From positions 1 through 51,637 of the forward strand of contig MVQI01000067.1 in NCBI GenBank assembly GCA_002067795.1: a stretch of 51,637 nt of DNA, given 5' to 3'. The DNA is from Methanosaeta sp. PtaB.Bin039 (GTDB taxonomy: Archaea; Halobacteriota; Methanosarcinia; Methanotrichales; Methanotrichaceae). The notes beneath the pieces were generated by a model. That model made no database searches. It was given only the letters and a program-made list of their open reading frames with translations, and had not been told where the DNA came from. Shown in pieces: positions 20,196 through 44,791 of this stretch. Every line of letters begins with the position of its first letter. Position 1 is the stretch's first letter. The translations under genes and the position numbers were made by a program.

Positions 20196-20223
20196 GCTTA
20201 GACGGAGTCGCTCAGTAATTTGG

Positions 20224-20237
20224 TGCTCCGGTAGGGA
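20224..20237. repeat. Leftmost att core (tRNA-Glu 3'-end copy)
   Basis: TGCTCCGGTAGGGA equals the last 14 bases of the tRNA-Glu gene (44778-44791). It extends to a 20-bp identity with 28513-28532. TTACTAGTAA lies at 20250-20259. Confidence 0.7.
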
Positions 20238-20619
20238 ATTCCGCGCGCTTTACTAGTAATATAGAGGCAGGAACGGATTATGATGATCGCATTAACTCCG
20301 TCAATATGATGGGATTTCAAGATTGTTCGAGAGCATCTACCCCAGGGCCAGAGATCTTGCCAAGAGGTATGCAGATGATCTGATGGACGCCGATATTCGG
20401 GATCTTGCGATTCGTCTCAGGCTGAGAAGGGTCAAATATCGCTCTCAAGCATCCAAAAAAAGTCTGAAGCATCGCATGAGCTTTAGGTTGGAGCATATAG
20501 AACAGCTCGAAGATATCGTTTTCATCGAAGAAGTCGGTATTGTGTTAATTGGCCTATTGAAATTTAAATCAACTGAGATCTCACACGTCTCATAATACTT
20601 TCGGATGGCAAAGCAGTAA

Positions 20620-20790
20620 TTATTGATTGAGCTTGCTTGACAAATTCTGATCCGGCAGCACTTCATGGAAACACTCAAAATCATCCACCTGCGGTTCCTC
20701 GCTTTGTGCGAACTCAGAAACTTGCCTATCCGAAAAACGTAGGAGGATATCGTGGATTTCCGCAGGCATTGCCTTCCAGAAATCGACCAT
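20620..20790 (-). CDS. Small acidic protein of unknown function
   Basis: The 56-aa frame begins MVDFWKAMPAEIHDILLRFS and stays acidic to its end. It has the composition and amphipathic pattern of a real small protein or of the N-terminus of a larger one that has decayed. There is no Shine-Dalgarno site. A TATA-like ttatataag (reverse strand, about 20851-20860) lies 65 bases upstream beside the 20861-20877 dyad. Unrecognised. Confidence 0.35.
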   Translation of the reverse strand: MVDFWKAMPAEIHDILLRFSDRQVSEFAQSEEPQVDDFECFHEVLPDQNLSSKLNQ

Positions 20791-20860
20791 TATGGTTCAG
20801 TGCAGGCTTGAAGTCTTGAGTCCTCACTTCTCTATCCCAATTACATCCAGCCTCTTATAT

Positions 20861-20877
20861 AATTCGGCTATCGAATT
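20861..20877. promoter_or_regulatory. Dyad flanked by TATA-like sequences
   Basis: AATTCG-gctat-CGAATT is a perfect inverted repeat with ttatat on its left and attattatag on its right. It looks like an operator lying in a promoter between the small leftward frame and the giant gene. Confidence 0.4.
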
Positions 20878-21044
20878 ATTATAGCGACTTTAGGTGCAGC
20901 GCGGGAAGTCCAGGTTCACAAAGGGGGTTTGAGTGCAACGCCCATCCAACCAAAAGAAATTTATGCAACTATCCCCTTCATTTGTAATCATTTTTTATAT
21001 CAAATTTGTAGTTGGTAGATCGACAGGGCGGAGGAGGGAAGATT

Positions 21045-24000
21045 ATGGATAGGCATCTATGGGCTTATGCCAATTCTTGCACTAGGAAATCTGTGAGCAT
21101 CGATCAAGCAAAGAGAATAAAATTGGTTGATTGTAATTGCGATTTCGTTGCGAAAGCCGTTTCTTCTCTGGCTTTGAGGGCAATGGTTGCTCTCATTCTT
21201 TGTCTGACCATGACCGGTTCGACCAATGCTGCCTCAATAGGTGGCTCTGTTTGGGACGATGAGAACTGCAACGGTTCGCTGGATTCCGGCGAGCTGGCAA
21301 TGGGAAACGTCAGTGTTGCGCTATTTAGAGCGATGGGGAATGATTCAGACGTAGTATCCAATATCTCAACCGATGTCGATGGAAATTACAGATTTGCAGA
21401 TCAGATGCCGGGGTATTATTATCTGATATTTTCCAGGCCGACTGGCAGCGAATATGCATTTAGCCCGAAGGATCGCGGAAACGACGACGACAGAGACAGC
21501 GACGCAGGAGCCGATGGAAAGACCGATATCTTTTATCTATCGGAACAAAGCGATTTCACCAGGGATGCTGGCATGTGCTCCTTTGTTGCGTCCTCCCTTG
21601 GTGATCTAGTCTGGGACGACTCAGATAGAGACGGCATCCAGGACTCAGGGGAACAGGGAATTGAAGCGGTGAACATCACGCTCCTGGACGCCATCGATGT
21701 CCCTGTGGCAACAACCGTCACAGATGCCCATGGACAGTACAGTTTTTCCGGCATTGCACCAGGGGATTATAGGATCAAATGTGCTCTGCCTATAGGCTAC
21801 GAATTTAGCCCTATGGACCAGGGAACGAACGACAGCCTGGATAGTGATGCCGATCCAGCAACAGGCCTGACAGCTATGGTCCATCTCCTCCCCGGCCAGA
21901 TCAACAACACATGTGATGTGGGCATGTTCCGGCTCGGGATTAAGCCTGGCGAGATCAAAACCGGCTTCGCCGGGGATGCGGGAACATGCAGATCACCTGT
22001 ATGCATAAGCGGCACCATTGCCAATGATTGCACGGGCGAGGGCCTTTCAGGCTGGACCATCAACGTCTTCGACTCATCAGGAAACTTGAAAGGCGCCACC
22101 ACGAGCTTATCTGACGGCAGCTGGAAGGTCTGCGATCTTATTCCAGGCAGCTACCGGGTAGGTGAGGTGCTAAAGCCAGGATGGCACAACATTACGGATC
22201 TCATACAGGAAGTGACACTTGGCTGCGAGGATATGGACGGAGTCACCTTCCGCAATGTTCCACTCTTATGCATCAGCGGGCAAGAATTGAACCATTGCAC
22301 AGGTTCAGCCCTTTCAGGTTGGACCATCAAAGTCACCGATTCTTCTGGAGACTTGAAAGGCGCCACCACAACCGGGCCAGATGGTCGCTGGAAGATCTGT
22401 GGCCTCATACCAGGCAGCTACAATGTCAGCGAGGAGCTGATGCCTGGATGGCATAACATAACAGATCTCACCCAGGAGGTGCTACTGGACTGCGATAATA
22501 AGACGGGTGTAATCTTTAGCAATGTTCCTCTATTGTGCGTCAGTGGCCGAAAAATAAACGATTGCACTGGAGAAGGCCTTTCAGGATGGACCATAAGAGT
22601 CTTCGACTCTTCCGGAGAATTGGAGGGCACTACCATTACAGGACCTGATGGTCGTTGGGAGATCTGCGGCCTCTTACCAGGTAGCTACAATGTTAGGGAG
22701 GAGCTGAAGCCAGGATGGCACAATGTCACGGACATCACCAGGGTGGTGGTACTCAGTTGCCAGAATCGGACCGGGATTGATTTCCTCAATGCTCCACTAT
22801 TATGCATATTCGGCAATATTACTGACGATTGCTCAGGAGAATTGCTTCCTGGCTGGACCATCAACGTCTTCGACTCTTATGGAAACCTGAAGGGCACCAC
22901 CACTACTAGCTCAGACCTTCCCTGGGAGATCTGCGGCCTCTTGCCAGGCAGATACCAGATTAGCGAGGAGCTTATGCCAGGCTGGCACAACGTCACTAAT
23001 CTCACCAAAGATGTTGTGCTTGGTTGCCAGAATGCGACAGGTAACACCTTCTTCAATGTCCGCAATGAAGGGCTCTTGTGCATAAGCGGCTACAAGCGCG
23101 ACAACTGCGGCGGCGGTTTGCCCGGCTGGAAGATTACACTGACAAATGGGACCTACACAGTATCCACGACGACCAATGACACCGGCTATTACGAGTTCTG
23201 CGGGCTGGCCCCAGGAGTTTACGAGCTTGCTGAGACTATGAAGCCAGGCTGGATGTCGGTTTCTTCGCCATCTCCGGTAAGCTTGACCTGCCAAGACGTC
23301 ACAAACCAGAACTTCACAAACCAGAAGCTCTTGTGCATAAGCGGCTACAAGCTGGACGATAGTGCAACAGGTTTGCCCGGCTGGAAGATTACACTGACAA
23401 ATGGGACCTACACAGAATCCACGACGACCAATGACACCGGCTATTACGAGTTCTGCGGGCTGGCCCCAGGAGTTTACGAGCTGAGAGAAGCCATGAAGCC
23501 TGGCTGGAAGCCCATGATACCAACGTCAATATTTGCTGAGTTGCAATGCGACGACGTCATGTACGTCAACTTCTCGAACACGATTTCTCAGGCACCCTTT
23601 GCCGTGGATGACTCCGCAGCAACCAATGCATGCACCGCTGTAGTAATAGATGTCATGTCCAACGATCTGAATGCTGACGGAGCCACCATATGCGATATAC
23701 AATCACCGTCGGATAACGGCGGAACCGCAGTTCTAGACGATGGAAATATCATATATACGCCAGCAGAAGACTTCTGCGGTGAGGATAACTTTACCTACAA
23801 ATTGTGCAAGCCAGGCTACAGCGAGTCCGAGCCTGCGACTGTGACCCTAACAGTCAGTTGCCTGCAGGCCGTGGACGACTCGGCAACAACCATAGCGGGC
23901 TCTCCAGTGGCAATAGATGTCATGTCCAACGATCTGAACGCTGATTCAGCGACCGTATGCAATGTACAATCGCCGTCCGAAGGTGGCGGAACCGCAGTTC

Positions 24001-27000
24001 TAACCGGTGGATATATCGTATATACGCCAGCATCAGGCTTCAGCGGCAAGGATAGGTTTACCTACCAGCTGTGCAGGGATAGCTGCGGATCTGAATTGGC
24101 CAACGTGACTGTCACAGTCAATTCAATTATATGCATCGAGGGCCATAATATAGACGATTGCGCCAAAAACGGCCTTGCTGGATGGGAGATTTACCTTACT
24201 GACAGCAGCGGCAGCACGATTTCCACCACATCGACAGATGCCAACGGCTATTACAGCTTCTGCAACCTGGCTCCAGGTGAATATCAGGTATGCGAGAAGC
24301 CAAAGCCAGGCTGGAAGGCTGTAACTTCCGCTTGCATCGATGTCAGCCTGAGCTACGATAACATTTCGGATTTAAATTTCACCAACACCAAGCTGACATG
24401 CGTGAAGGGCCGAAATATAGATGACTGTAGCGGAAACGGGATTGCTGGGTGGGAGATCTACCTGAATGACAGCAGCGGCAACACCATTTACACTACATCG
24501 ACCAATGCCACCGGCTATTACGAATTCTGCAACCTGGCTCCAGGTGAATATCAGGTTTGCGAGAAGCCAAAGCCAGGCTGGATAGCATTAACCTCTGCAT
24601 GCCGCAATGTCATGATGGGCTGTGTCAACCGTACTGGAGTGGATTTCATCAACACCAAGCTGACATGCGTGAAGGGCCGAAATATAGATGACTGTAGCGG
24701 AAACGGGATTGCTGGGTGGGAGATCTACCTGAATGACAGCAGCGGCAACACCATTTACACTACGTTGACCAATGCCACCGGCTATTACGAATTCTGTAAC
24801 TTGGCTCCAGGTGAATATCAGGTTTGCGAGAAGCCAAAGCCAGGCTGGATAGCATTAACCTCTGCATGCCGCAATGTCATGATGGGCTGTGTCAACCGTA
24901 CTGGAGTGGATTTCATCAACACCAAGCTGACATGCGTGAAGGGCCGAAAGATCGATGGCTCCGGGATTGCTGGGTGGGAGATCTACCTGAATGACAGCAG
25001 CGGCAACACCATTTACACTACATCGACCAATGCCACCGGCTATTACGAATTCTGCAACCTGGCTCCCGGTTATTATCAAGTCTGCGAAAAGCTAAAGCCA
25101 GGCTGGAAGGCGGTAACCTCTGCATGCCATAATGTCGCGACTACATGTACAAACCGAACAGGCGTCGATTTCGTTAACTTGCCAACTGAGATGGGATGCA
25201 TAGCCGGATACAAGCTAGACGAGATGGCGCAGGGATTGGCAGGCTGGAAGATCTATATAGACAGCAATGACAACAGCCAGCTCGATGATGGAGAAAAGAG
25301 CACAGACACCAATTCCGATGGTTATTGGCAGATCTGTGGCTTGATCTCCGACTCCTATCTCGTCCGCGAGGTACCGAAGGCGGGATGGAGCCAAATAGAT
25401 CCTCCTGCACCATTTGCAGCATATGTTGCTACATTATCGGGATCCCAGAATATTGACGACGTAAACTTCACCAATAAGAAAGATGTCTCTGATTATGTGG
25501 AAGGCAAGAAGTGGTACGACGCCGATCATAACGGGGTGTACGATGAAGGCGAACCATTCCTTGAAGGCTGGAAGATCTATATCGATCTCAACAACAACGG
25601 CCAGTTCGACGAAGGCGAGCCTTTTGATCTGACGGGATCTGACGGGAGCTACACTCTGCCTCTTGGCCAGACACAAGAGGTTCTAACCATTAGAGAGGAA
25701 TCCCAAGAGGGCTATTCCCAAACTTGTCCGGCCAGCGGCTACTATCTGGTGAGCCTCCCCCCAGACGGTTCAGTGGACTTAGCTGCCCTTGATTTCGGCA
25801 ACTACAAACCCTCCATGGCCCTGAGGAAGACTGCATCAGTTGCATCGATTGCTCCAGGAGAGCCGATCACCTACACGATCGAGATCTGCAACGATGGCGA
25901 ATTTACACTGGAAGATGTGGTCGCAAAGGATGTCTTCGATGGAGATGTGATCATGGTTTCTGCCACCCCGCCGATTTCACCCGACGGTTTGTGGCACATC
26001 GGCGAGATAGCGCCTAAAGAGTGCGTTCACCTCTCGCTCACTGTTCTCGTACCTGAGATAGACACGAGCTTCAGCATGGAGCAGGGAGTATCGGGCACCG
26101 GATTTGTGAATGTTAACAACGACTATAGCACTAATGTTGAGCCTTACGGCCTGACCAACTGCATCCATGTAACCAGCAAGTACGGTCAGCTTGCGCTTCC
26201 GGAGAGCAGCTCCTGTGCCTCAGTTACCGTACGTCCAAACAAGGGAACGGAGCTGGAGGTACGAGAGCATGGCAGCGGCGTATACCAGTCCGAGGAGACC
26301 ACATCCCTCGAATCGAAGAACAAGTCGATTTCCAGCAGCAAGACGCTGACTGCAATATTCGCCCCGACGAGCTTTTCGCTCCCCAACGATCGGAAGATCA
26401 ATTACACAACGAGGTGGATCGAGAAATTGAGGTCAAAGAACTGGGCGACAGGAGCTTCTTCGGTCGAAGAGTACCTCTACGCAAATGAGATAGATCGCGA
26501 TAGCACCATCCGATTGGACCAGAATGGCTCGACCTCGACTGTAGACGTCAGCTTCGATGGTCTGGGCCACCTGGGCTTGCTGAAAAGGAAAGAGCCATCA
26601 ACCAGGACCGAGTTCGATTACGATCCCACATTTGAATCGAGTGAGGACTATGCCGGATCTTTCCACGTCTATGAGAGAACAGACGAGTACGGCGAGAACG
26701 TTGCCTTTGACAGATCAGTCGAAGGCCAGGGATTCGTATCATCGGACCAGCGGGTGAGGAGCAGCCAGAGGACCTATGAATCTGGAACCGGAAACTACCA
26801 GACTGACGAGATGATACGCACCCACACCAGCTATATCTCCAAAGACATCAACCTGACCCATGCTCCTGCCAGCTACAATTACTCCCCCAACATCAGAACT
26901 TATCAAGACATCAAATGGAACGAGGGGATCTGGTCGAAGAGTAGCGGAACGGCTGGCGGGATCAGCTTTGGCAGCAACGCGACAGCCATGGGTGGGGATC

Positions 27001-28097
27001 TGATATGGGCGGGCTGCCCGAACACGAGCATCGGGTATGCGAGCTACATTGGGGAGGAGTTTAGAACCCTCGACTATCTGAAGAAAGAGACCACAGCCAA
27101 AGGCCTGAACGAGATGGAGACGGAGGCCAGATTCTCAGGCCAGGCTGACTTTGAGACAATGACTCGATTCAAGAATCTGACTTGGTCTGCAGAGGTAGGA
27201 GATGAAGAAAGCTACGTCGGCGAGTACACGCTGTCGAGGAAGGTCAAGCTGACCGGCGTCTCAAAGTACGATACCCCGCACATCTCCGTCTCCAAGACTG
27301 GCGAGATATTCGAGGCCAAATACAACAAGACCTGGGCGACACTGGCAAGGTACACCATAACGGTGACAAACGACGGAAACCGCGATCTGAGTCCGATACA
27401 TCTATTGGAGATCTTCCCGGCGGGAGCGGAGTTTATCAATGCCACCGTCAGGCCGGACAGCCTTGGCAGCAAATCTGCCAACTGGACGCTAACCCACCTG
27501 GATGTGGGCGGGCAGTCTACAATAGGCCTGCTATTCAATGTGACCAAGAGCCTCGACCTCGTCGATATCGTTCAGGTTGCAGGAGCTTATGACGACAAGT
27601 GGGCCACGGCTGCGAATTACACTGTAATTGAGAGAAGCTGGCTGCAATGCTGCTCGCCTGATATCGAAGTGGCCAAGACCGCCGAGGTTATTGGAGATGC
27701 CCAAATCCTGTACACAGTGACCCTAAAGAGCAATGCAAATCACTCGATGGCGGCTACCGTGACCGACCATCTGCCGGCCTATCTGACGATGATTCGCTCA
27801 TCGATGGAACCGAAAATCTACGAATCTGGCAGGATTGTTTGGATGTTCCTGGACATCGCTCCTGGCGAGACGAAGAGCGTCCAATACCTCGCAAACGCAG
27901 CCAGAAATGGCCAATACACAAACCAGGTCCATGTCGAGGCGTCGTCGATTGACGGAACCGGTTCAGCGACGGCGGATGATAGCGTAACGGTCGCAATTGG
28001 AGGCACATTCAAGCCAGCCCGCACAACAAGATTCGGAGGGTGGCAGCCTCCTGAAAGGTTCGGGCTCAACACATCTGAAGAGGGTTTGGTGATGTGA
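21045..28097 (+). CDS. Giant secreted repeat protein (SdrD-B, Cys-rich Cna-B-like, Big/VCBS-like and DUF11 domains)
   Basis: A 2350-aa surface protein. The ATG at 21045 is chosen for GGAGGAGGGA six bases upstream. A late signal segment (MVALILCLTMTGSTNAA) ends near residue 62. Domains in order: two SdrD-B-like domains (about 63-300, IGGSVWDDENCNGSLDSGE and GDLVWDDSDRDGIQDSGE); four 89-residue Cys-paired Cna-B-like modules (about 320-675); two shorter modules; two Ig-like domains (AVDDSA, then IDVMSNDLNAD, then IIYTPA); four more modules plus two SdrD-B domains (about 1028-1585); a DUF11 domain (SMALRKTASVASIAPGEPITY); about 400 unassigned residues; and two C-terminal DUF11 domains. No membrane anchor or sorting motif is visible. 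A TATA box lies at 20991-21001. It is probably an adhesin or cell-sheath component. Confidence 0.85.
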   Translation: MDRHLWAYANSCTRKSVSIDQAKRIKLVDCNCDFVAKAVSSLALRAMVALILCLTMTGSTNAASIGGSVWDDENCNGSLDSGELAMGNVSVALFRAMGNDSDVVSNISTDVDGNYRFADQMPGYYYLIFSRPTGSEYAFSPKDRGNDDDRDSDAGADGKTDIFYLSEQSDFTRDAGMCSFVASSLGDLVWDDSDRDGIQDSGEQGIEAVNITLLDAIDVPVATTVTDAHGQYSFSGIAPGDYRIKCALPIGYEFSPMDQGTNDSLDSDADPATGLTAMVHLLPGQINNTCDVGMFRLGIKPGEIKTGFAGDAGTCRSPVCISGTIANDCTGEGLSGWTINVFDSSGNLKGATTSLSDGSWKVCDLIPGSYRVGEVLKPGWHNITDLIQEVTLGCEDMDGVTFRNVPLLCISGQELNHCTGSALSGWTIKVTDSSGDLKGATTTGPDGRWKICGLIPGSYNVSEELMPGWHNITDLTQEVLLDCDNKTGVIFSNVPLLCVSGRKINDCTGEGLSGWTIRVFDSSGELEGTTITGPDGRWEICGLLPGSYNVREELKPGWHNVTDITRVVVLSCQNRTGIDFLNAPLLCIFGNITDDCSGELLPGWTINVFDSYGNLKGTTTTSSDLPWEICGLLPGRYQISEELMPGWHNVTNLTKDVVLGCQNATGNTFFNVRNEGLLCISGYKRDNCGGGLPGWKITLTNGTYTVSTTTNDTGYYEFCGLAPGVYELAETMKPGWMSVSSPSPVSLTCQDVTNQNFTNQKLLCISGYKLDDSATGLPGWKITLTNGTYTESTTTNDTGYYEFCGLAPGVYELREAMKPGWKPMIPTSIFAELQCDDVMYVNFSNTISQAPFAVDDSAATNACTAVVIDVMSNDLNADGATICDIQSPSDNGGTAVLDDGNIIYTPAEDFCGEDNFTYKLCKPGYSESEPATVTLTVSCLQAVDDSATTIAGSPVAIDVMSNDLNADSATVCNVQSPSEGGGTAVLTGGYIVYTPASGFSGKDRFTYQLCRDSCGSELANVTVTVNSIICIEGHNIDDCAKNGLAGWEIYLTDSSGSTISTTSTDANGYYSFCNLAPGEYQVCEKPKPGWKAVTSACIDVSLSYDNISDLNFTNTKLTCVKGRNIDDCSGNGIAGWEIYLNDSSGNTIYTTSTNATGYYEFCNLAPGEYQVCEKPKPGWIALTSACRNVMMGCVNRTGVDFINTKLTCVKGRNIDDCSGNGIAGWEIYLNDSSGNTIYTTLTNATGYYEFCNLAPGEYQVCEKPKPGWIALTSACRNVMMGCVNRTGVDFINTKLTCVKGRKIDGSGIAGWEIYLNDSSGNTIYTTSTNATGYYEFCNLAPGYYQVCEKLKPGWKAVTSACHNVATTCTNRTGVDFVNLPTEMGCIAGYKLDEMAQGLAGWKIYIDSNDNSQLDDGEKSTDTNSDGYWQICGLISDSYLVREVPKAGWSQIDPPAPFAAYVATLSGSQNIDDVNFTNKKDVSDYVEGKKWYDADHNGVYDEGEPFLEGWKIYIDLNNNGQFDEGEPFDLTGSDGSYTLPLGQTQEVLTIREESQEGYSQTCPASGYYLVSLPPDGSVDLAALDFGNYKPSMALRKTASVASIAPGEPITYTIEICNDGEFTLEDVVAKDVFDGDVIMVSATPPISPDGLWHIGEIAPKECVHLSLTVLVPEIDTSFSMEQGVSGTGFVNVNNDYSTNVEPYGLTNCIHVTSKYGQLALPESSSCASVTVRPNKGTELEVREHGSGVYQSEETTSLESKNKSISSSKTLTAIFAPTSFSLPNDRKINYTTRWIEKLRSKNWATGASSVEEYLYANEIDRDSTIRLDQNGSTSTVDVSFDGLGHLGLLKRKEPSTRTEFDYDPTFESSEDYAGSFHVYERTDEYGENVAFDRSVEGQGFVSSDQRVRSSQRTYESGTGNYQTDEMIRTHTSYISKDINLTHAPASYNYSPNIRTYQDIKWNEGIWSKSSGTAGGISFGSNATAMGGDLIWAGCPNTSIGYASYIGEEFRTLDYLKKETTAKGLNEMETEARFSGQADFETMTRFKNLTWSAEVGDEESYVGEYTLSRKVKLTGVSKYDTPHISVSKTGEIFEAKYNKTWATLARYTITVTNDGNRDLSPIHLLEIFPAGAEFINATVRPDSLGSKSANWTLTHLDVGGQSTIGLLFNVTKSLDLVDIVQVAGAYDDKWATAANYTVIERSWLQCCSPDIEVAKTAEVIGDAQILYTVTLKSNANHSMAATVTDHLPAYLTMIRSSMEPKIYESGRIVWMFLDIAPGETKSVQYLANAARNGQYTNQVHVEASSIDGTGSATADDSVTVAIGGTFKPARTTRFGGWQPPERFGLNTSEEGLVM
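24384..25172 (+). repeat. 267-bp tandem repeats inside the giant gene
   Basis: Two units, 24384-24650 and 24651-24917, are identical except for a few bases (for example tacatcgacc against tacgttgacc). A third, 24918-25172, has lost 12 bases (NIDDCSGNG became KIDGSG). The same 267-bp period (89 codons) spaces the older, diverged modules at about 22001, 22268, 22535 and 22802. Confidence 0.85.
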
Positions 28098-28518: not shown

Positions 28519-28532
28519 TGCTCCGGTAGGGA
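28519..28532. repeat. attL core
   Basis: TGCTCCGGTAGGGA, identical to the tRNA-Glu 3' end. The integrase-operon promoter lies 30 bases to its right. Confidence 0.85.
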
Positions 28533-28544: not shown

Positions 28545-28568
28545 TTTACTTAGTAAAGACTTTATAGC
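28545..28568 (+). promoter_or_regulatory. Operator palindrome and TATA box of the integrase operon
   Basis: tttacttagtaaa (28545-28557) is a perfect odd palindrome. It abuts the TATA box tttatagc (28561-28568), which is centred 25 bases before the ATG at 28589. This spacing predicts a leaderless mRNA and repression by whatever binds the palindrome. Related palindromes lie near the other two att copies. Confidence 0.6.
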
Positions 28569-28588: not shown

Positions 28589-29095
28589 ATGGCTGGAAAT
28601 ATCCCAGATAAAACCAGATATTCTTACATTTACCATCCAAGCCGCCCCCATAAGGAGAGATGGGAGAAGGCAGCTGCCAAAGCGCATTCACCGCTATCGA
28701 AATTCGTTGTAGAAATCGTGGATTCGTATCTCGATGCAGAATTTCAGCCAAGAGAGCTGGCCAGGGAAGCCGAGGCTCTGAGGAAGGAAAACCGCGCCTT
28801 GCGCGACGAACTGCGTCAGAAGAGTATCCTGGTTGAACGATACGAAGCCGATCTGAGGCGTTACCGATCAGCTCCGTGGAACCAGGACAGCTTCACAGGC
28901 TATCGGATGCTCAACGACGACTTGATCAGCCTCCTCCGGACCCGGGGGTGGGTGGACGGGCCGACCATCTTGAACGAGCTGGGGGTAACCAGAGATGAAT
29001 CCGAGCTGGCCAAAGCCGTTGAGAGGCAGCTTGAAGGTCTCCAGGACTTCGGCGTGATCAAGAGGGAAGGCGCTGGGTGGCGGTGGTCAGCATAA
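28589..29095 (+). CDS. DNA-binding regulator: RHH-like N-terminus, coiled coil, winged-helix C-terminus
   Basis: This 168-aa protein has residues 1-55 (RPHKERWEKAAAKAHSPLSKFVVEIVDSYL) in the strand-helix-helix pattern of ribbon-helix-helix proteins. Residues 58-92 form a coiled coil (AREAEALRKENRALRDELRQ). Residues 105-168 look like a winged helix (LISLLRTRGWVDGPTILNELG, then LEGLQDFGVIKREGAGWRW). It overlaps the integrase start by 19 bases, so the two are co-translated. The likely role is control of integration or excision. Predicted to be translated from a leaderless transcript. Confidence 0.65.
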   Translation: MAGNIPDKTRYSYIYHPSRPHKERWEKAAAKAHSPLSKFVVEIVDSYLDAEFQPRELAREAEALRKENRALRDELRQKSILVERYEADLRRYRSAPWNQDSFTGYRMLNDDLISLLRTRGWVDGPTILNELGVTRDESELAKAVERQLEGLQDFGVIKREGAGWRWSA

Positions 29096-30006
29096 CGCTT
29101 GTGGACGATTATCTGAGTGACTGTGAGATCCGGGGGATGGCCAAAGACTCCATCCCTCGTTATCGCTCAACCCTGGGGATATTCCAGGCGTTCATGGTCG
29201 GTCGTGGCTCTGAAATCCAAGAAGCAGACGGGCAGTCGTTACGTGACTTTATCGAATACTTGAGAAAGGAGCGTCGCACTACGCAGAAGACCATAGAGAC
29301 CTACTTTTCGGTCCTCTCCAGCTTTTATGATTTCTTGGCATTCGAAGGCGTGATAGATAAGAATCCAGTGCCTCCGATAAGAAAGCGCTACCTCAAGCGC
29401 TACAAAGACAATGGACCCAGGCACGAACGGCAACTAATCACAGTGGAGGACGCTGGCCGGCTGGTCAGGGCTGCTCTGATCGTCCGGGATAAGGCGATAA
29501 TAGCTTTGCTGTTCAAGACCGGAATCCGCCGTGGTGAGCTGGTCTCATTGGATGTTTCGGACGTGGACCTGATAGAGGGGAGACTAAAGCTCAAGCCGAC
29601 AGCGAAAAGATCAAACCGAGTTCTCTTTTTAGACGAAGAAGGCATGTTTCTATTGAAGCGCTGGCTGCGGGTCCGGGAAGGCGTGAATCGTCGAAATTCA
29701 CCAGCCCTATTCTTGAGCACCTGGGGCTATCGGATCTCCAGGACCGATGTCTATGAGCTGGTGACCCAGGCAGCAGAGCGCGCCGGTCTGCATGATCCTA
29801 CCTCACCCAGGATGGAGGACCACTTCTCCCCCCATTGCTGCCGGCATTGGTTCACAACGCACCTCCGGAGGGCTGGCATGGCCCGGGAGTTCATCCAGGA
29901 GCTGCGAGGGGATAGCCGGAGGGAGGCAATAGATATTTATGATCATATAGATGAAAAGGAGCTGAAGGATGCTTACCTGGCGGCCATACCGCGGTTGAGG
30001 ATATGA
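29077..30006 (+). CDS. int: Tyrosine recombinase (integrase)
   Basis: A 309-aa site-specific recombinase with an N-terminal SAM-like core-binding domain (1-95, SIPRYRSTLGIFQAFM and TIETYFSVLSSFYDFL). The catalytic domain has Arg152 (TGIRRGEL), Lys177, His253-x-x-Arg256 (HCCRHWFTTHL) and nucleophile Tyr288 (AIDIYDHI). The third His/Trp position seems replaced in GDSRRE. It would recombine the 14-bp core in tRNA-Glu with its copy. The gene is intact, not split by integration. The start is GTG at 29077 inside the preceding gene. Confidence 0.93.
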   Translation: MAVVSITLVDDYLSDCEIRGMAKDSIPRYRSTLGIFQAFMVGRGSEIQEADGQSLRDFIEYLRKERRTTQKTIETYFSVLSSFYDFLAFEGVIDKNPVPPIRKRYLKRYKDNGPRHERQLITVEDAGRLVRAALIVRDKAIIALLFKTGIRRGELVSLDVSDVDLIEGRLKLKPTAKRSNRVLFLDEEGMFLLKRWLRVREGVNRRNSPALFLSTWGYRISRTDVYELVTQAAERAGLHDPTSPRMEDHFSPHCCRHWFTTHLRRAGMAREFIQELRGDSRREAIDIYDHIDEKELKDAYLAAIPRLRI

Positions 30007-35752: not shown

Positions 35753-36352
35753 ATGGGCCGACCGTGTGGACCATGTCACGATCCGAGACGAATTGAAATA
35801 GATCGCCGATTGCTGAATAAGGAGATTAGCGGCGAAACGTTTCGTCTCCTATCGTCGGAGTTCGGCTTTTCCGAGATAGCCCTCCGTCGTCACCTGGCCC
35901 GCCACCTGACAGTTGACCTTGCTGCTGTCCAGGCCGCAAAAGAGGACGCCCGGCAAAAGGCCCTAGCCGAGGCCCATGATCGAGAACTCGAAGCCGTGAA
36001 GGCTGACATGAGAGACAGCACGGCGGCCCGGTTGGAGAACTGTGAAAATTTCTTTGACCAACTCCGGATCATTAGAGAGGCAGCAGCGAAGCAGTTGGAT
36101 AAGGCCGAAGGAGCAGATGACCCTCGGGGGACTCTGGCAGCAATCCGGGAGCTGAGGGAGCTGGTCCGCCTGTGGGCTGAGATAGACGGAAAAATCCGTA
36201 GCCAGCAGATCAACGTTGTTGTGGATATCTACAGCAGCCCGCAATGGATCGAGGCGGGCCGAGCCCTGGCCGAGATCCTAGAGCCCGAGAGCCCTGAGCT
36301 TAGGCGGAGGGTGGCAGAGCGGCTGCACGCCCTGGCGGAGGCGTCCCGATGA
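35753..36352 (+). CDS. Terminase small subunit-like protein
   Basis: A 199-aa protein directly upstream of the terminase ATPase, overlapping it by ATGA. The N-terminus CGPCHDPRRIEIDRRLL is followed by a helix-turn-helix (SGETFRLLSSEFGFSEIALRRHLARH) that could recognise packaging-site DNA. A long coiled coil and a C-terminal helical part complete it. Gene order and HTH support a small terminase. A plain regulator is the alternative. Confidence 0.65.
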   Translation: MGRPCGPCHDPRRIEIDRRLLNKEISGETFRLLSSEFGFSEIALRRHLARHLTVDLAAVQAAKEDARQKALAEAHDRELEAVKADMRDSTAARLENCENFFDQLRIIREAAAKQLDKAEGADDPRGTLAAIRELRELVRLWAEIDGKIRSQQINVVVDIYSSPQWIEAGRALAEILEPESPELRRRVAERLHALAEASR

Positions 36353-37107
36353 AACCCATGGCCTATGCGGTCGCTCCGAGTCTGTGGGCGAGGGAAGCCC
36401 TTGGTTTCGTCCCGGATCAGAAGCAGGCTGAAATACTTGATTCCAGCAATAAGCGTATTATTATAAATTGTCATAGACAATGGGGCAAAAGCACAATTTC
36501 AGCCATCATTTGCCTTCACCGGGCCCTGTTTTGGCCTGAGAGCCTCTGCCTGATCACTGCCCCTGCCCTTCGACAATCCTCTGAGAACTTCCGGAAGATC
36601 ATTTCCTTCCTGGACGGCATGGACGAATCACCGGGGCTGGTCGAGGACACTAAGTTAACCCTTCAGTTGAACAATAAAAGCCGGATCCTATGTCTGCCAG
36701 GCGGCAGCGATGGCCGGACGATACGCGGCTTTTCGGCTCCGGATCTGATAATCGAGGACGAAAGCTCTCGATGCAGTGAAGAGCTCCATCTGGCACTGCT
36801 GCCGATGCTGGCCCGGAAGCCTCATAGCAGGTTGATTCTGGCCTCGACGCCCTGGGGTCAACGAGGTCATTTCTTCAAGACCTGGGCCGAAGGCCAGGGC
36901 TGGCAAAAGGTGGAGCTTAGGGCGTCGGAGAATCCCCGGATTAGTCCCGAGTATCTGGAAGAGATGCAGGCAACCATGAGCCCCTGGGATTTTGCCCAGG
37001 AATTTGAATGTGAATTCGTGGCCTCTGAGTCTCAACTGATTTCTGAAGAGATGATCCAAAGAGCACTGAATCCGGACATCGAACTTATTCCATTTGGAGA
37101 TGCATGA
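36349..37107 (+). CDS. Terminase large subunit, ATPase half
   Basis: The 252-aa protein holds the packaging-motor ATPase: Walker A CHRQWGKST (41-49), Walker B LIIEDE (133-138) with its catalytic Glu, and coupling motif LILASTPWG (about 158-166). The chain stops at IPFGDA, exactly where the nuclease domain should begin. That domain is encoded by the next gene in another frame through an ATGA overlap. Together the two are 491 aa, the normal size of one large terminase. Confidence 0.85.
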   Translation: MKPMAYAVAPSLWAREALGFVPDQKQAEILDSSNKRIIINCHRQWGKSTISAIICLHRALFWPESLCLITAPALRQSSENFRKIISFLDGMDESPGLVEDTKLTLQLNNKSRILCLPGGSDGRTIRGFSAPDLIIEDESSRCSEELHLALLPMLARKPHSRLILASTPWGQRGHFFKTWAEGQGWQKVELRASENPRISPEYLEEMQATMSPWDFAQEFECEFVASESQLISEEMIQRALNPDIELIPFGDA

Positions 37108-37823
37108 GAGGTTTTATTCTATCCCTGGACCCTGCACAGGTGCGGGATTGGTCAGCCCTGGCAGCGGTCAAAGCCGTCTGGAAGGCAGAGACCAAGACCT
37201 TCACCTACAGGTTGGTCAATATCGAACGCTTGCAGAAAGTCCCGTATGATGAAATCGTGGCCTGGACTATCCGGGCTTTTCGGACTCCGGCGTTTCGGCA
37301 GGATGTCAGCTTCGGTCCGATCCTGTGCTTGGATTCAACCGGGGTAGGTGTGGCAATCCGGGACATGTTCCTCAAGGCGGGCGTCCAGCCGGTTTCGATC
37401 TCCATCACGTCCGGGAACGGCCATTCCGTAGTTGGCGGAGATCGCCATGTCGGTAAAGCCAGGCTGATAGGGAAGTTCCTGGCAGCGTTTGATGCCGGTC
37501 GATTCCAGATACCGGATAAGGAGACGCCAGCCCTTGTTCAGCTTCAAAGGGAACTAAAGAGCTTCCGAGCCGAGCTGAGCACCGCCGGTAACGCCAGGTT
37601 CGAGGCGGAGCCAGGCGAGCACGACGACCTGGTCCTGGCCTGCTCGATGGCCGCCTGGTTCGGCGAGGACGTGCTTAAGGACCGGAACGTTGGGCCGCTT
37701 GTATTCTCTGGCGCTACCAAACCCCATACATTCGGCAGCGGACGAAGTGGAGGCGGCTGGTTTGCGGAAGCTGCCCGGCACCACGGCGGCGGCAGCGAGT
37801 TTCTGGGCGGTATCCATCATTAA
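37104..37823 (+). CDS. Terminase large subunit, nuclease half
   Basis: A 239-aa RNase H-fold nuclease. The acidic residues expected for two-metal catalysis are Asp9 (LSLDPAQVRDWSA), Asp77 (LCLDSTGVGVAI) and Asp174-Asp175 (GEHDDLVLACSMAAW). It cuts concatemers or the filled-head DNA in tailed viruses. TGGAGA precedes its ATG, so translation can reinitiate. The Gly/His-rich C-terminus is beyond the conserved domain. Confidence 0.8.
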   Translation: MRGFILSLDPAQVRDWSALAAVKAVWKAETKTFTYRLVNIERLQKVPYDEIVAWTIRAFRTPAFRQDVSFGPILCLDSTGVGVAIRDMFLKAGVQPVSISITSGNGHSVVGGDRHVGKARLIGKFLAAFDAGRFQIPDKETPALVQLQRELKSFRAELSTAGNARFEAEPGEHDDLVLACSMAAWFGEDVLKDRNVGPLVFSGATKPHTFGSGRSGGGWFAEAARHHGGGSEFLGGIHH

Positions 37824-38783: not shown

Positions 38784-39050
38784 ATGAGATTGACCTCGTT
38801 CAAAAAAGGTTGTCCCTGCCCGGTAGCCGGCCTGGCTGGCAAGCGGAAATGCCTGGGCGCTGACTGCGGCTGGTATCTGCCAGATAGTGATCCACGCTGC
38901 TTGATCGCTCTACAGACAGTAACCTTGATGTCCATGATTGATGAACTCGAAAAACTGACTGGTGCGGTCCGCCCTATGGGAGACAATATAGGCGCAGCTC
39001 TTGGATTGCTTGATGAGTTCCGCAATGACGCCGAGGAGGCGGGCAAGTGA
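38784..39050 (+). CDS. Unknown 88-aa Cys-containing protein
   Basis: The N-terminal half has KKGCPCPVAGLAGKRKCLGADC, a likely zinc site. The C-terminal half is helical. It ends by overlapping the tape-measure start (GTGA), the usual position of a tail-assembly chaperone, although its sequence does not identify it as one. Confidence 0.5.
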   Translation: MRLTSFKKGCPCPVAGLAGKRKCLGADCGWYLPDSDPRCLIALQTVTLMSMIDELEKLTGAVRPMGDNIGAALGLLDEFRNDAEEAGK

Positions 39051-41554
39051 CCGAACGCACAGCCACCATAAAGGTCAGAATTGACGACGGAATAGGAAAC
39101 CGGCTCCTTGAGCTGAAGCAGCAGAGAGATGCTCTGCTATCCAGGTCAGCAATCAACCTCCGGATCAATGCAGACGGCCTCGACCAGGCGAGACAGGCGG
39201 CGGTCCGAGCTCGGGCCGAGTCTGCAGCAGCAATGAAAGACCTGACTGCCCTGGGTGGTGCTATCACTTCGCAAGCTGTCGCACCCATGGCCCAGTATCA
39301 GGCAGTCCTAAGTAGTGCCATCCAGGCGTCGAAGATCCTGGGGGCCGGAGGGGTGGCAGCTCTAAAAGGAGTCTCCGGCGAGTTCCAACGCCAGCGGACT
39401 CTTGCCCAGTTCTGGGGGACGTCCGGGTACATGCACCAGGGGATCCATTCGTTCAGAGGGTCGATCCAGAACTTCCTTGCAACTGGTGGGTCCAGGTTCA
39501 CCGGCTGGTTAACCAGTGTGTCTGCCCAATTGACTCAGTACCGCACAGCTTTGACAGCTTCAGCGGCCGTCATGGTAGGCTTTGCGGCAGCTGCAGGTCT
39601 GAGTTCCAAGCACGCCCAGAACTACATACAGGCGACAATGGGCTCTCGCTTGATGGCCCGGAAGCTGTCAGACCGGGCCGGTGCTGAAGCCTGGATCCAG
39701 GCGGCACAATCGACAGATTGGTCCGGAGGCAGAGAGTCCAGGATGGGCGTATTCCAGACGGTACTCTCTAAAAATCCGTATGTCGGCCAGAAGGAAGCCC
39801 AGAAGGCCACGGAGAATATCGAGAAGTTCTTCTTTGCAAATCAGGAGATGCTCCGGAAGAAGGGATACGATTCTGCAGAAGCTCTCGCATCGGCCATATC
39901 GGCGCCCCAGCTGGCGGGCGAGGATGCTACCAAGTTTGAGGACATATTCGGCTTGGGATTTGCAGCTCTGACTCCCAGGGCCAGGCTTGGCAGGCTGTCC
40001 ACCGAGGCAGCAGGCATCAACGTAGAAGAGGCCGTGGCAAAGCGGCCCGATGTGGTCCTGGCTGACCGGCTAGGAAAGGCGGCGGGGGCCATCGGCGATT
40101 CAGTTCTGCCCGTGCTTAACCAGGTCCTAGGCCTGTTCCTTGACATCTCAAACGTCATCGCAAAGATCCCGGGCCTGGGTCCGATGTTGGGCTGGGCTGC
40201 GGTGATAGGTGGAGCTGCAGCTGCAGGGCTCATATTCATCTCCATGGTCGGCTCATTGATCCCGGGCCTGATGACCGTAATAGGCGTCCTCAAGGCAGCA
40301 GCGGCAGCTCAGACCCTTCTCAACGTGGCCATGCTTGCCAATCCTATCGGGCTTGCAATCCTGGCGGTTGCCGGTCTGGCTGCAGGACTCTACGTCCTTG
40401 AGAAGAAGTTCGGCATCCTCACGAAGGCCTGGAACGCTTTCAAAGGCTCCGGGATCGGGAAAGCTATTGCCGGAGCTGACATGAAAGGGGTTCTCCGAGT
40501 AGCTGCTGACGTGCTGGGCGTAGCCAGTCCAGGACTCAAGGTCCTGCTGATGCTGTTCGATTTCATCCGGAAGATCTGGATCAATTCTGGGATTCTGAAT
40601 AAGCTCATAGCCGGAGGCGTGGCTATGTGGCAGAAGATGGTTGACTTTTTCGGGTGGCTGCTATCACTAATCAATAATATGATCCAGTGGATCAGGGAGG
40701 GGCTGGGGATAAACAAGTCTGAAGCCCGCTCCAAGATGGAGACGGCTGCCCAGAAAGCAGGGGTATATTGGGACCAGGACGGCCGATCTGGTCCTGGATG
40801 GTATAAGAACAGCATCCGGCAGGACACCGGCCCAACCGACCCGAGGTTCGCGGAACTCTACAAACTAAAGCAGGCATACGACAAGACGCCGGGCAGCTTT
40901 GCCGAAGCGATCCCGGGAATCGCCAACCTGACGAAAGCCATTGAGGCTCTGACTTACGTCCTGGAACATCCGGTTCAGGCCGGAGCCGCAGCTGCCCAGG
41001 GAGTCGGGAACGTCGTCACCGGAACGGCCGACCTGCTGACCGGCAAAACTGTGGCGAGCTCGCCGCAGCTGACCGGCAGCGATGGGAACACCTACGCCTG
41101 GGACCCGAAAAAGAAGGCCTGGAGGCTATGGACTGCAGACCCGACAGGGACCTCAATGTTAGGCGGCTGGTTCGACGACGTGGATCAGGGGGCCCTCCCG
41201 GCAGATATCGCAGCTCAAACTCCCCAGATGGCTGCAGGCGGCCAGATCCGGGCAGCTGGGTCTCTGATCGGTCACCGAGGGGAAGAGATCGCCCCTGCCT
41301 CCGTGGTGGCTGGAGGCAGGACGGTTCTTGAAGAGCTCACCGGCCTGATATCCGGAGGTCGGGGCGGAGGCCAGCCGATAGCCATATCCGCCCCGGTCAG
41401 CGTCCATGTCGAGGTCGGCCAGGTATCATCAGATCTGGATATCGAGCGCCTGGCCACCAGGATCGGACGGGAAGCTGCTGACAAGCTCATGTTCGGCCTT
41501 CGGACAGGTCTGGACAATACCAGCCTGCGAGCGATAGCTTACATGCGAGGGTGA
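39047..41554 (+). CDS. Tail tape-measure protein
   Basis: This 835-aa protein has helical, Ala/Gln-rich N- and central regions, long hydrophobic stretches (about 365-450, WAAVIGGAAAAGLIFISMVG and LANPIGLAILAVAGLAAGLY), and a C-terminus with AAGGQIRAAGSLIGHRGEEIAPA, a hallmark of tape-measure proteins. It would set tail length and enter the host membrane. The start is GTG with GAGGAGG upstream. It is the last gene of the operon; no tail fibre or baseplate genes follow. Confidence 0.8.
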   Translation: MTERTATIKVRIDDGIGNRLLELKQQRDALLSRSAINLRINADGLDQARQAAVRARAESAAAMKDLTALGGAITSQAVAPMAQYQAVLSSAIQASKILGAGGVAALKGVSGEFQRQRTLAQFWGTSGYMHQGIHSFRGSIQNFLATGGSRFTGWLTSVSAQLTQYRTALTASAAVMVGFAAAAGLSSKHAQNYIQATMGSRLMARKLSDRAGAEAWIQAAQSTDWSGGRESRMGVFQTVLSKNPYVGQKEAQKATENIEKFFFANQEMLRKKGYDSAEALASAISAPQLAGEDATKFEDIFGLGFAALTPRARLGRLSTEAAGINVEEAVAKRPDVVLADRLGKAAGAIGDSVLPVLNQVLGLFLDISNVIAKIPGLGPMLGWAAVIGGAAAAGLIFISMVGSLIPGLMTVIGVLKAAAAAQTLLNVAMLANPIGLAILAVAGLAAGLYVLEKKFGILTKAWNAFKGSGIGKAIAGADMKGVLRVAADVLGVASPGLKVLLMLFDFIRKIWINSGILNKLIAGGVAMWQKMVDFFGWLLSLINNMIQWIREGLGINKSEARSKMETAAQKAGVYWDQDGRSGPGWYKNSIRQDTGPTDPRFAELYKLKQAYDKTPGSFAEAIPGIANLTKAIEALTYVLEHPVQAGAAAAQGVGNVVTGTADLLTGKTVASSPQLTGSDGNTYAWDPKKKAWRLWTADPTGTSMLGGWFDDVDQGALPADIAAQTPQMAAGGQIRAAGSLIGHRGEEIAPASVVAGGRTVLEELTGLISGGRGGGQPIAISAPVSVHVEVGQVSSDLDIERLATRIGREAADKLMFGLRTGLDNTSLRAIAYMRG

Positions 41555-41751: not shown

Positions 41752-42516
41752 TCATGGATTTGATATTATTCGTCTGATTAACTGCTTCTTATTTTCGATC
41801 AGTTCCTTGAGGAATGCGGAATGATCTGAATGATAACTCGTCCCAAATATGCCTGTGGGAAATAAAGATGCTTTGGATGCATTATCATTCTCTTCTAATA
41901 GCATCTTCAACTCCCGCAAATGACTTGCTAAATCCATTTCCGGCTGGCTCGAATGCCCAGTACTCAACCTCATATTGATGAGTCTCTGTAATTCTTCATA
42001 GTTCACCAGTTCTGAAGATGTGCCACGTCTTACATAGATTGCATTTTCTTGAATTTGACCCGGGGATGCGCCCGTGGATATGAGCGGAAGATCATCAAGA
42101 TCAACATCGATTATAATTACCTGGAATTTCTTCCCTTTGATTTTCGGGTATTCGGTTTCTTCGAAATTAAAATCAAAAATTAAAATATTCTCCCATATCT
42201 CTCTTGGAATGAACCTTTTAATACTATCATGAATATGTAATTTATCCTTTATGCTTTCGATTCCTATTGGATCAAACGTGCCATTGTCCAGTTCCTTAAC
42301 ACCAATGACAATGCAACCAAATCTTGAATTGCCCATCGCAAGCAAGTGACGGGCCAATGTTGGAAAATCCGGCATCTTCTCCTTGAAATCGAGATGATTG
42401 TCCTCCCCAGTATTGGTTCTAAGAACTTCTCTTAGGTTCTCAGGTGTTGGATTTTCAATAAACTTCGCAAAATGTTCTTTAGGGATAGTAGGTCCAGTCA
42501 GTTCCATATTATTCAT
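41752..42516 (-). CDS. AlbA_2/Schlafen-type putative DNA- or RNA-binding protein
   Basis: A 254-aa AT-rich gene. HLDFKEKMPDFPTLARHLLA, then MGNSRFGCIVIGVKE, then a Pro-rich FIPREIWENILIFDF segment, is the AlbA_2 (Schlafen AAA_4-like) domain, which in bacteria often sits in regulators and in defence or phage genes. AIYVRRGTSSELVNYEELQRL is the conserved end of that domain. The last 70 residues are a helical extension. The start is taken at MNNMEL (42516); the frame is open to 42600. Leftward and isolated, it looks like cargo. Confidence 0.7.
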   Translation of the reverse strand: MNNMELTGPTIPKEHFAKFIENPTPENLREVLRTNTGEDNHLDFKEKMPDFPTLARHLLAMGNSRFGCIVIGVKELDNGTFDPIGIESIKDKLHIHDSIKRFIPREIWENILIFDFNFEETEYPKIKGKKFQVIIIDVDLDDLPLISTGASPGQIQENAIYVRRGTSSELVNYEELQRLINMRLSTGHSSQPEMDLASHLRELKMLLEENDNASKASLFPTGIFGTSYHSDHSAFLKELIENKKQLIRRIISNP

Positions 42517-42672
42517 GCTACTATCAGTTGATAAAAGGCTTCTGAACACATTCTTTGTTCGTTTACATCCCATGTAAAACATCAAATGTCTCTGGACCAC
42601 CAGGCCAGACCGCTATTTCTTGACCCTTTCTTGACCCATTCACCTCCATATCCTAGAGTAGATGGGTGTAAA

Positions 42673-42696: not shown

Positions 42697-42762
42697 CTGG
42701 GCCTCATTTCCAAATCAGACCGTTTTCCTGCCTCGTCCTCCCAAAACCTTTTACATTTTACA

Positions 42763-43287: not shown

Positions 43288-43296
43288 CCCGCCACC

Positions 43297-43410: not shown

Positions 43411-43721
43411 TATCTCCACCCTGCCACCTCATCCCCGAGCTCGTGCAGGTCGGCGTAGATGACTGCCGCATCAGGGCCGAAGCCACCAACAAGAGCCTTT
43501 AACCGCTTTTTGGCGAACTCCTCAGATATGCCAGCCTGGCGGGCCAAGTAGGCCAGAGCCCCATGGTTATTCAGGAGATCGACGGGCAGGACCCGAGCCG
43601 CCCCCTCGAGTTCGACTTCGAAGAGTTCGTGATAGAGCCGATCCGCGAGAGGTTCCAAAGTGGCCAGGTCCTCCACCTGGCCGATCCGGGCAATGATCTC
43701 GCCTACATGCTGGGGGATCAT
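43410..43721 (-). CDS. Unknown 103-aa protein
   Basis: Helical; reads MIPQHVGEIIARIGQVEDLA, later QAGISEEFAKKRLKALVGGF, which could be a helix-turn-helix. It overlaps the preceding gene by four bases. Confidence 0.5.
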   Translation of the reverse strand: MIPQHVGEIIARIGQVEDLATLEPLADRLYHELFEVELEGAARVLPVDLLNNHGALAYLARQAGISEEFAKKRLKALVGGFGPDAAVIYADLHELGDEVAGWR

Positions 43722-43996
43722 TCGCCACCCTCCACGAAAAGACCCTCTAGCCCACCTTGCGGCTGGCCGGTAAAGCTCCAGCCGTCATCGAGCAGGCTGA
43801 TGAGCTTATCCTGACCGACACCACGGTAAACTGCCCTAATATTGTCCGCGTCTGCTGACTGGATTATGGCCCCATCGCTGACCAGGGAGCGGATGGCCTC
43901 CACGTGTGCCTGCGGATCTTCCGTCTGCATGAACAGCTCGATGACTGCAGCTTGATCCTCTCTGTGGAAGTCCGCTATCAGCTTCAATGTGGCCAT
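43718..43996 (-). CDS. Unknown 92-aa protein
   Basis: Acidic and helical (LKLIADFHREDQAAVIELFM, then HVEAIRSLVSDGAI). It starts one base after the stop of the SWIM-domain gene and overlaps the next by ATGA, so it is co-translated. No family recognised. Confidence 0.5.
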   Translation of the reverse strand: MATLKLIADFHREDQAAVIELFMQTEDPQAHVEAIRSLVSDGAIIQSADADNIRAVYRGVGQDKLISLLDDGWSFTGQPQGGLEGLFVEGGE

Positions 43997-43997
43997 C

Positions 43998-44429
43998 TCA
44001 GACCACCGCCTCAGATGGCCTAAATACCGGCCGGAAGTCGCCTATATCATCCCCTGCCAGCTCGAGCTTCCCGGAGCCACCCTTGCCCGCCAGGGCCTGG
44101 GCCCGGAGTTCCCTTTGCTTAGCCTGGTAGGCTGCAGCCTTGCTCTGCCCCGAGGGGAAGTGCTCAGCCCTGTGCTTGCACGGTTCCCCTGGGCGGTATG
44201 TGGCCGCAGGGCAGGAGCAGGTCCCGGGCGTGGTCACATAGTAGGCATCGCCCTTCTTGCTGCGCACCAGGACCAGCCTCGCACCCAGGCGGTAGAAGGC
44301 TGGCATCTCTGCCGGAGACTGGCCACGGCTACGGCTTTTAATCAACTGCGCTACAGCTTCCGCGGTCTGAGTGACCGGGGAGGCTACTGATAGAATGGTC
44401 TTTCCGTTCACATGTCTCACCAAATTCAT
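43998..44429 (-). CDS. SWIM zinc-finger protein
   Basis: A 143-aa protein with CSCPAATYRPGEPCKH (about residues 70-85), the CxC-x10-CxH zinc motif of SWIM domains, preceded by two beta strands (ARLVLVRSKKGDAYYVTTPG). SWIM fingers bind DNA or protein in recombination and transposition proteins. First gene of a five-gene leftward operon. Its start codon lies inside the inverted repeat at 44425-44476, and a TATA box (tataaata on the reverse strand, about 44445-44452) implies a leaderless mRNA. Confidence 0.7.
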   Translation of the reverse strand: MNLVRHVNGKTILSVASPVTQTAEAVAQLIKSRSRGQSPAEMPAFYRLGARLVLVRSKKGDAYYVTTPGTCSCPAATYRPGEPCKHRAEHFPSGQSKAAAYQAKQRELRAQALAGKGGSGKLELAGDDIGDFRPVFRPSEAVV

Positions 44430-44476
44430 ACTTGGTCAGACTAGTATTTATAGGTGGTGGTTCTACCTAGTATGAA
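44425..44476. promoter_or_regulatory. Divergent operator/promoter
   Basis: ttcatacttggt (44425-44436) and acctagtatgaa (44465-44476) are inverted with 11 of 12 bases matching. A third half-site, ctagtat, lies at 44441. They overlap the SWIM-gene promoter and lie just upstream of the rightward TATA box (tatata, about 44481-44486). Confidence 0.65.
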
Positions 44477-44510
44477 AAAGTATATATGTTCTCCAGTATT
44501 ATTATTGATC

Positions 44511-44687
44511 ATGCCTGTAAAAAAAATCGGGATTAGCATAAGTCCGGAGACGTATAAGGCAGTTGAGGAAGCGGTCGCCGCTGGTGAGTTTAGAAGCGTT
44601 TCCCATCTATTCGAGGATGGGGCCAAAATGATATTGCGGAAAAGACATTCAGAGAAAAGCGGAAACCCTTGTGAGGCCTCCGCTTAA
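44511..44687 (+). CDS. Ribbon-helix-helix regulator
   Basis: The 58-aa product reads MPVKKIGISISPETYKAVEE, then FRSVSHLFEDGAKMILRK, a typical RHH repressor: a KIGISIS strand and two helices. The start at 44511 is preferred over 44454 because the TATA box near 44483 is about 26 bases upstream and the domain begins there. It faces the SWIM operon across the operator and probably represses both itself and that operon. Confidence 0.7.
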   Translation: MPVKKIGISISPETYKAVEEAVAAGEFRSVSHLFEDGAKMILRKRHSEKSGNPCEASA

Positions 44688-44777
44688 TCTCCGAGTCATC
44701 CCGGTTGGTGAGACACGTGAATGACTGTGATGTGATTTCCCACTTTAAAATGGTATTATGCTTACTTAGTATTTTCA

Positions 44778-44791
44778 TGCTCCGGTAGGGA
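44778..44791. repeat. attR core within tRNA-Glu
   Basis: TGCTCCGGTAGGGA, the 3' acceptor end of the tRNA on the complementary strand. A TACTTAGTA palindrome lies just inside the element at 44764-44772. Confidence 0.85.

Follow-up and report, generated by a model that had tools for sequence, protein, structure and literature searches.

What placed three copies of the 3′ end of one tRNA gene in a single archaeal locus? The window analysed here, a stretch of 51,637 nucleotides from Methanosaeta sp. PtaB.Bin039 (contig MVQI01000067.1), contains the 3′ end of its tRNA-Glu(CTC) gene at the gene itself and at two positions to its left. The preliminary description had read these copies as marking two integrated units in tandem: unit B, between the middle copy and the tRNA gene (28519-44778), and unit A, the 8.3 kb to the left of B (20224-28518). 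We consider that the locus arose by accretion at a tRNA-Glu(CTC) gene that serves as a hot spot: an old insertion decayed, B integrated later between the remnant and the tRNA gene, and the family of B most likely represents virus satellites; we assign this reading a probability of roughly 0.68. The tandem proposal holds by one half, since B is well supported as a complete 16.26-kb integrative element. A is not a comparable unit: it is incomplete, only its left end is recognisable as a genuine att end of the family type, and the palindrome there is that of a different subclade.

The last 14 bp of tRNA-Glu(CTC), TGCTCCGGTAGGGA, are repeated exactly at 20224-20237 (core 3), 28519-28532 (core 2) and 44778-44791 (core 1), and these are the only exact copies in the whole 2.45-Mb genome. 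Shuffles of the window gave a mean of 0.31 matches with 2 mismatches allowed. Cores 2 and 3 have 20 bp in common, ATTTGGTGCTCCGGTAGGGA (28513-28532 and 20218-20237), and in the sense of the tRNA both read CCAAAT past the core (CCA plus AAT). To the right of each lies a palindrome, 26 bp (core 3) and 27 bp (core 2) from the core start. The repeats, the 20-bp identity and the two palindromes are thus as first described. A third palindrome copy, TTACTTAGTAT, is located at the tRNA end of B. The palindrome is identical in both arms of B, TACTTAGTA, and the rebuilt attP of B is bracketed by matched TTACT-N-AGTA palindromes; the chance of such a palindrome within ±1 bp of the expected core offset is p ~8e-5. 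A core of only 14 bp, seen in one assembly, might raise the suspicion that the extra copies are chance matches or assembly artefacts. This is scarcely credible, because exact matches are confined to three places in the genome, each left copy has the family-specific palindrome at the right spacing, and independent cousins share the same anatomy, a family pattern that already refutes it.

B contains a direct repeat of the 3′ end of its target tRNA at both ends and an intact tyrosine recombinase gene with the R...HxxR...Y residues, as do class II (lambda/pNOB8-like) elements. Core 2 is located 558 bp upstream of the intact integrase gene and not within it, which sets B apart from elements with SSV-type (suicidal) integrases. 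The integrase has many relatives in Methanotrichaceae, and four further elements with a direct repeat at the tRNA 3′ end and a palindrome at both ends were found there (L103, L223, L148 and G010:C28; L, G and C label loci, genomes and contigs). Among 30 distinct Methanotrichaceae relatives of the B integrase, 25 have the palindrome ~530-640 bp upstream of the gene, with a spacer of 3 nt in 7 and of 2 nt in 18. The core adjoining the palindrome, where matchable, is the 3′ end of tRNA-Glu, -Gly, -Met or -Leu. The B integrase belongs to a supported clade of five (97/99), all five of which have the 3-nt spacer and a tRNA-Glu core. Since the cousin L103 resides in the same tRNA gene with both ends, the palindromes are matched and the pattern is family-wide, we take both the integrated state of B and a series of integrations at tRNA-Glu to be well supported; B is probably still excisable. 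The palindromes are putative arm-type sites, either for the integrase or for the RHH (ribbon-helix-helix)-like protein encoded at 28589-29095, a homologue of which is kept upstream of the integrase gene in L103, L138, L142, L143, L145, L146, L153 and L223. Paired palindromes provide a simple signature for element ends and for scars of past integration in fragmented methanogen genomes, and the length of the spacer predicts which integrase belongs to which end, a prediction that can be tested.

The same signature indicates that the tRNA-Glu site has been used repeatedly, since the arm is present at a fixed position in 12 of 32 Methanotrichaceae tRNA-Glu flanks, against a mean of 0.19 and a maximum of 2 in shuffles. 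Most of the arm-bearing flanks have no element in the stretch read and therefore look like scars. The genome G024, from another species (L108, G024:C16), has a second tRNA-Glu core 7.2 kb further on, arms flanking the inner core and an integrase fragment adjoining the tRNA gene, a two-element tandem at tRNA-Glu. In the metagenome-assembled genome G035, contigs C20 and C26 (L103 1-74, L145 1-74) begin at the same base, and a different B-type element on each of them borders on the same 60 bp of outer flank, as would be seen if elements were exchanged at one site. This suggests that alternative elements occupy one site in different cells of the population. Because apparently untouched tRNA-Glu genes of relatives (G009, G006 and genus g6) encode CCA, the arrival of B seems to have cost the tRNA-Glu(CTC) gene its own. 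Across the tRNA-Glu loci of relatives (L095-L134), CCA is encoded in some genomes and not in others; flanks with the arm palindrome mostly lack it, as if it had been removed by integration.

Cores 2 and 3 each have an inward arm, so that more than one element end is present at one tRNA gene, as in a tandem accretion array. The earlier suggestion that both left copies are ends of related elements stands in that core 3 is a true att end belonging to the same broad family; its spacer is 2 nt and that of the B clade 3. Of the two att ends that a mobile decayed element would retain, the left one in A is good, and the tRNA-side arm position reads TCATAGGGAA, a 5/8 match weak enough for chance. A was also said to carry a giant surface protein and no integrase. 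It does lack a working integrase gene; what it contains, at 20626-20849, is the decayed N-terminal part of one. The closest relatives of this relic are integrases encoded ~93 bp downstream of tRNA-Leu genes and pointing away from them, some with full-length frames, and we therefore rejected the relic as the maker of core 3. Remains of B genes were sought across A, and none were found.

The left end of A with its flawless palindrome and core, the 20 bp common to cores 2 and 3 and the intact 2361-codon gene could be explained if A were a non-autonomous cargo element with functional att ends, excised or carried by the B integrase in trans or as a composite with B; in bacteria, accretion can mobilise decayed elements in which attL and attR are retained (PMC5704250). 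We consider this unlikely, given that the left arm of A has a 2-nt spacer against 3 nt in 5/5 of B's supported clade, that the tRNA side has no matching arm, and that A contains an integrase relic. The giant gene also counts against it: members of its family are widespread, being present in 24 of 41 relatives, often in multiple copies and also outside elements; neither an integrase nor a tRNA gene was near the 8 homologue loci checked, which leaves the idea of a typical element cargo unsupported. The spacer mismatch, the weak tRNA-side arm, the foreign integrase relic and the multi-copy family of the giant gene are the reasons why A is best read as mosaic remains. Of the two origins first proposed, the remains of an earlier integration thus fit better, and a cargo mobilised in trans, though possible, is disfavoured.

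Alternatively, 20224-28518 may be ordinary chromosome that was never one element, with core 3 a solitary scar and the giant gene brought in by rearrangement or local duplication. Outside core 3, a relic at 20092-20196 aligns to the giant gene with a score of 49 (shuffle maximum 21) and is the closest paralogue found; the third-position GC content (GC3) of the giant gene, 0.60, equals that of chromosomal genes, and the CCA at core 2 matches the apparently untouched tRNA-Glu genes of relatives. On the other hand, core 3 with its inward arm is the kind of end that an integration produces when the target tRNA lies to the right, and at least part of the intervening DNA must therefore once have been an element. 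We regard an origin of the whole stretch as plain chromosome as quite unlikely.

For the accretion array that we prefer, we infer the following order of events. An earlier element with 2-nt-spacer arms would have integrated at tRNA-Glu, leaving core 3 and its palindrome at 20224-20259, and would then have lost its tRNA-side arm and integrase. Stretch A would have become a mosaic of the intact giant surface gene and the unrelated integrase relic. B would later have integrated between this remnant and tRNA-Glu, its attP (a 14-bp core between two palindromes) undergoing tyrosine recombination with the tRNA 3′ end; this would have rebuilt tRNA-Glu and replaced the encoded CCA. The predicted attP junction of B is GTCCCTACCGGAGCA joined to TGAAAATACT; the rejoined site is predicted to read tRNA-CCAAATCATAGG, and the full rejoined site tRNA-CCAAATTACTGAG.

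Several points weigh against this reading. With no clear arm at the right end of A, where TCATAGGGAA stands, the extent of A as one former element is uncertain, and the giant gene could be native chromosome moved in by rearrangement. Neither an empty site nor an excised circle came to light. The nearest relatives have ~67% DNA identity at the flanking genes, too distant for an empty-site comparison; among 36 other Methanotrichaceae genomes with tRNA-Glu, none was close enough, and the gene order downstream of the tRNA was not kept. IMG/VR gave no match to the attP junction of B or to the 19-bp core with CCA.

The gene content of B bears on how its family spreads. From the integrase end, B encodes an accessory protein, the integrase, accessory genes, a replication protein, a putative terminase small subunit (TerS) and a split terminase large subunit (TerL). 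Downstream of TerL follow 2-3 small proteins (with genes at 38121-38636 and 38784-39050), then the tape-measure-like and Schlafen-domain proteins and, at the tRNA end, the small proteins conserved in the family. The Walker A/B residues in the ATPase half of TerL are invariant in 12 homologues, as are Asp residues D9, D15, D77, D174 and D175 among the aligned homologues of the nuclease half. Since the gene order is conserved and the catalytic residues are intact across several genera, the terminase seems to be in use. Judging from its position and Walker motif, the product of 33063-35612 is probably a replication helicase. Its Gins51 C-terminal domain (PF22090) is unusual for a mobile-element helicase.

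No portal or head genes were found in the seven elements scanned (B, L103, L143, L145, L146/L248, L153 and L223), and the same scan recovered the portal, major head protein and head protease at control loci. L143, L145 and L153 stop at contig edges before a second att, so only in B, L103, L223 and G010:C28 can the lack of capsid genes be called complete. B thus lacks the portal and major capsid genes of a head-tailed provirus and, like phage-inducible chromosomal islands (PICI), combines its own integrase and packaging genes with a specific att and no capsid. Proviruses with portal genes, the potential helpers, are present in 3 of 41 relatives (G001, G010 and G013) and absent from this assembly. 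We had considered whether the TerL family is private to B-type elements and rejected this, because related split TerL genes turn up across many bacteria and archaea, some of them next to a portal gene.

Such a related split TerL in portal-bearing proviruses (L225), together with the tape-measure-like gene of B, would also be consistent with B being the defective provirus of a head-tailed virus, with its capsid genes lost, and not a member of a capsid-less family. This is unlikely, since six other family elements from several genera are likewise devoid of portal and head genes where control proviruses scored positive, and invariant catalytic residues of TerL are unexpected for relics. The B family most likely spreads as satellites, which would package their DNA into particles of head-tailed archaeal viruses. 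Some members carry defence cargo. In the G010 cousin, the interval from TerL to the tRNA end contains type I-B Cas1, 2, 3, 4, 5, 6, 7 and 8b and repeat arrays, and another cousin carries a GmrSD-like restriction gene. Tentatively, and at slightly less than even odds, we propose a fuller picture: B and its cousins may be archaeal head-tailed virus satellites that use their own two-part terminase to fill helper capsids, enter tRNA genes through paired, clade-specific palindromic arms, compete for the same tRNA and accumulate there, and transport defence genes, among them an entire type I-B CRISPR-Cas system.

Tandem integration by reuse of a site is established in archaea (PMC6563490, PMC8371274), and accretion on a decayed element has been published as giving the same succession of attL, decayed element, chimeric att, intact element and tRNA 3′ end (PMC5704250); the three-core array as first stated is therefore not new. 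Element order and three-step origin are those of the bacterial arrays in which a cis-mobilizable element (CIME) adjoins an integrative and conjugative (ICE) or integrative and mobilizable element (IME) (PMC5704250). However, the host here is archaeal, B has terminase genes and no conjugation genes were found in it, and the second end of A is not recognisable, which keeps A from being classed as a movable CIME. B resembles the class II elements of the pNOB8/SNJ2 type (PMC8371274) in that the integrase gene stays intact, tandem integration is known, and a short att, 14 bp as for SNJ2, lies at the tRNA 3′ end. The B family differs in having its attP bracketed by a TTAC-N2/3-GTAA pair at fixed spacing, with a spacer length that tracks the integrase clade; a term search of the class II review (PMC8371274) found no mention of arm sites.

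The added interest of the array is that it leads to a recurrent archaeal family that, from its genes, keeps a complete and apparently active packaging motor without a capsid. In Thaumarchaeota, the integrated element NitKor-E1 likewise has TerS, TerL and a tyrosine integrase; it lacks any further gene of head-tailed viruses and was judged a likely relic (PMC6563490). NitKor-E1 is a single case, whereas the B family is recurrent, with a conserved gene order, a split TerL and invariant catalytic residues, and it bears on the question raised there as to why an archaeal element that is not a virus should have a terminase (PMC6563490). PICI and other bacterial phage satellites (PMC11389934) are similarly small (7-31 kb here) and tRNA-integrated, with their own integrase and replication genes, a packaging gene, no capsid and defence cargo. 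Unlike them, the B family is archaeal and has a whole terminase (TerS plus split TerL), and its helpers are known only as candidates.

Table 1 Features of the tRNA-Glu(CTC) locus, ordered by subject, and complete cousins of B.
Feature	Position or size	Strand	Evidence or remark
tRNA-Glu(CTC), target gene	44778..44852	-	ARAGORN; 3′ end 44778-44791 is att core 1 (attR of B)
att core 2, end of B next to int and chimeric junction to unit A	28519..28532	+	exact repeat
att core 3, orphan left end of older integration	20224..20237	+	exact repeat
int-side arm palindrome of B, TTACTTAGTAA, 3-nt spacer	28546..28556		sequence match
tRNA-side arm palindrome of B, TTACTTAGTAT, 5 nt beyond core 1	44762..44772		same place in 12/32 Methanotrichaceae tRNA-Glu flanks
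arm palindrome of unit A, TTACTAGTAA, 2-nt spacer	20250..20259		sequence match
degenerate arm outside core 3, tRNA sense TTACTGAGCGA, 6/8	20208..20218		likely scar of a still older round
168-aa protein, candidate accessory factor	28589..29095	+	by reading, N-terminus RHH-like, C-terminus winged-helix-like, with a coiled coil; no family match
tyrosine integrase, intact R...HxxR...Y	29077..30006	+	PF00589 E 7e-28; phrog_1 E 4e-41
358-aa AT-rich accessory protein	30475..31551	-	no family match
849-aa replication protein, Gins51_C domain	33063..35612	+	PF22090 E 4e-11; P-loop by reading
candidate terminase small subunit (TerS-like)	35753..36352	+	directly precedes TerL; kept in L143, L145, L146, L223, L225, L226; no family model match
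terminase large subunit, ATPase half, separate open reading frame (ORF)	36349..37107	+	phrog_7579 E 2e-42
terminase large subunit, nuclease half, separate ORF	37104..37823	+	phrog_27743 E 9e-28
tape-measure-like protein, sole tail gene found in B family	39047..41554	+	phrog_1272 E 1e-7
Schlafen AlbA_2-domain protein, accessory cargo	41752..42600	-	PF04326 E 1e-10
SWIM-like small protein, kept at tRNA end of family	43998..44429	-	homologues in L103, L119, L223
RHH protein, kept at tRNA end of family	44454..44687	+	PF01402 E 0.01; homologues in L103, L119, L223
relic, N-terminal domain of tRNA-Leu-type integrase	20626..20849	-	frame broken; 81% to G000:C62:157-379
giant surface protein, 2361 codons, intact ORF	21012..28097	+	SdrD_B, SpaA, Big_9, DUF11
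relic of giant-gene paralogue, outside core 3	20092..20196	+	77% to 27111-27216
complete cousin L103	13,788 bp		same tRNA-Glu
complete cousin L223	14,258 bp		palindrome at both ends
complete cousin L148	7,005 bp		palindrome at both ends
complete cousin G010:C28	30,611 bp		tRNA-Gly
complete type I-B CRISPR-Cas of G010:C28	L248 7437-17285, arrays to L146 ~2700		element ~19.5-50.2 kb at tRNA-Gly

Elsewhere in the same genome, a truncated integrase N-terminus (G000:C62:129-395, L178) lies ~93 bp downstream of tRNA-Leu(CAG), and the tRNA-Leu integrase family recurs in several relatives at the same ~93-bp spacing. The cousin L223 contains an ORF of 1077 aa (5554-8787) with a primase/helicase-like N-terminus and a C-terminal part that matches phrog_13321 and is radical-SAM-like by its cysteine motif.

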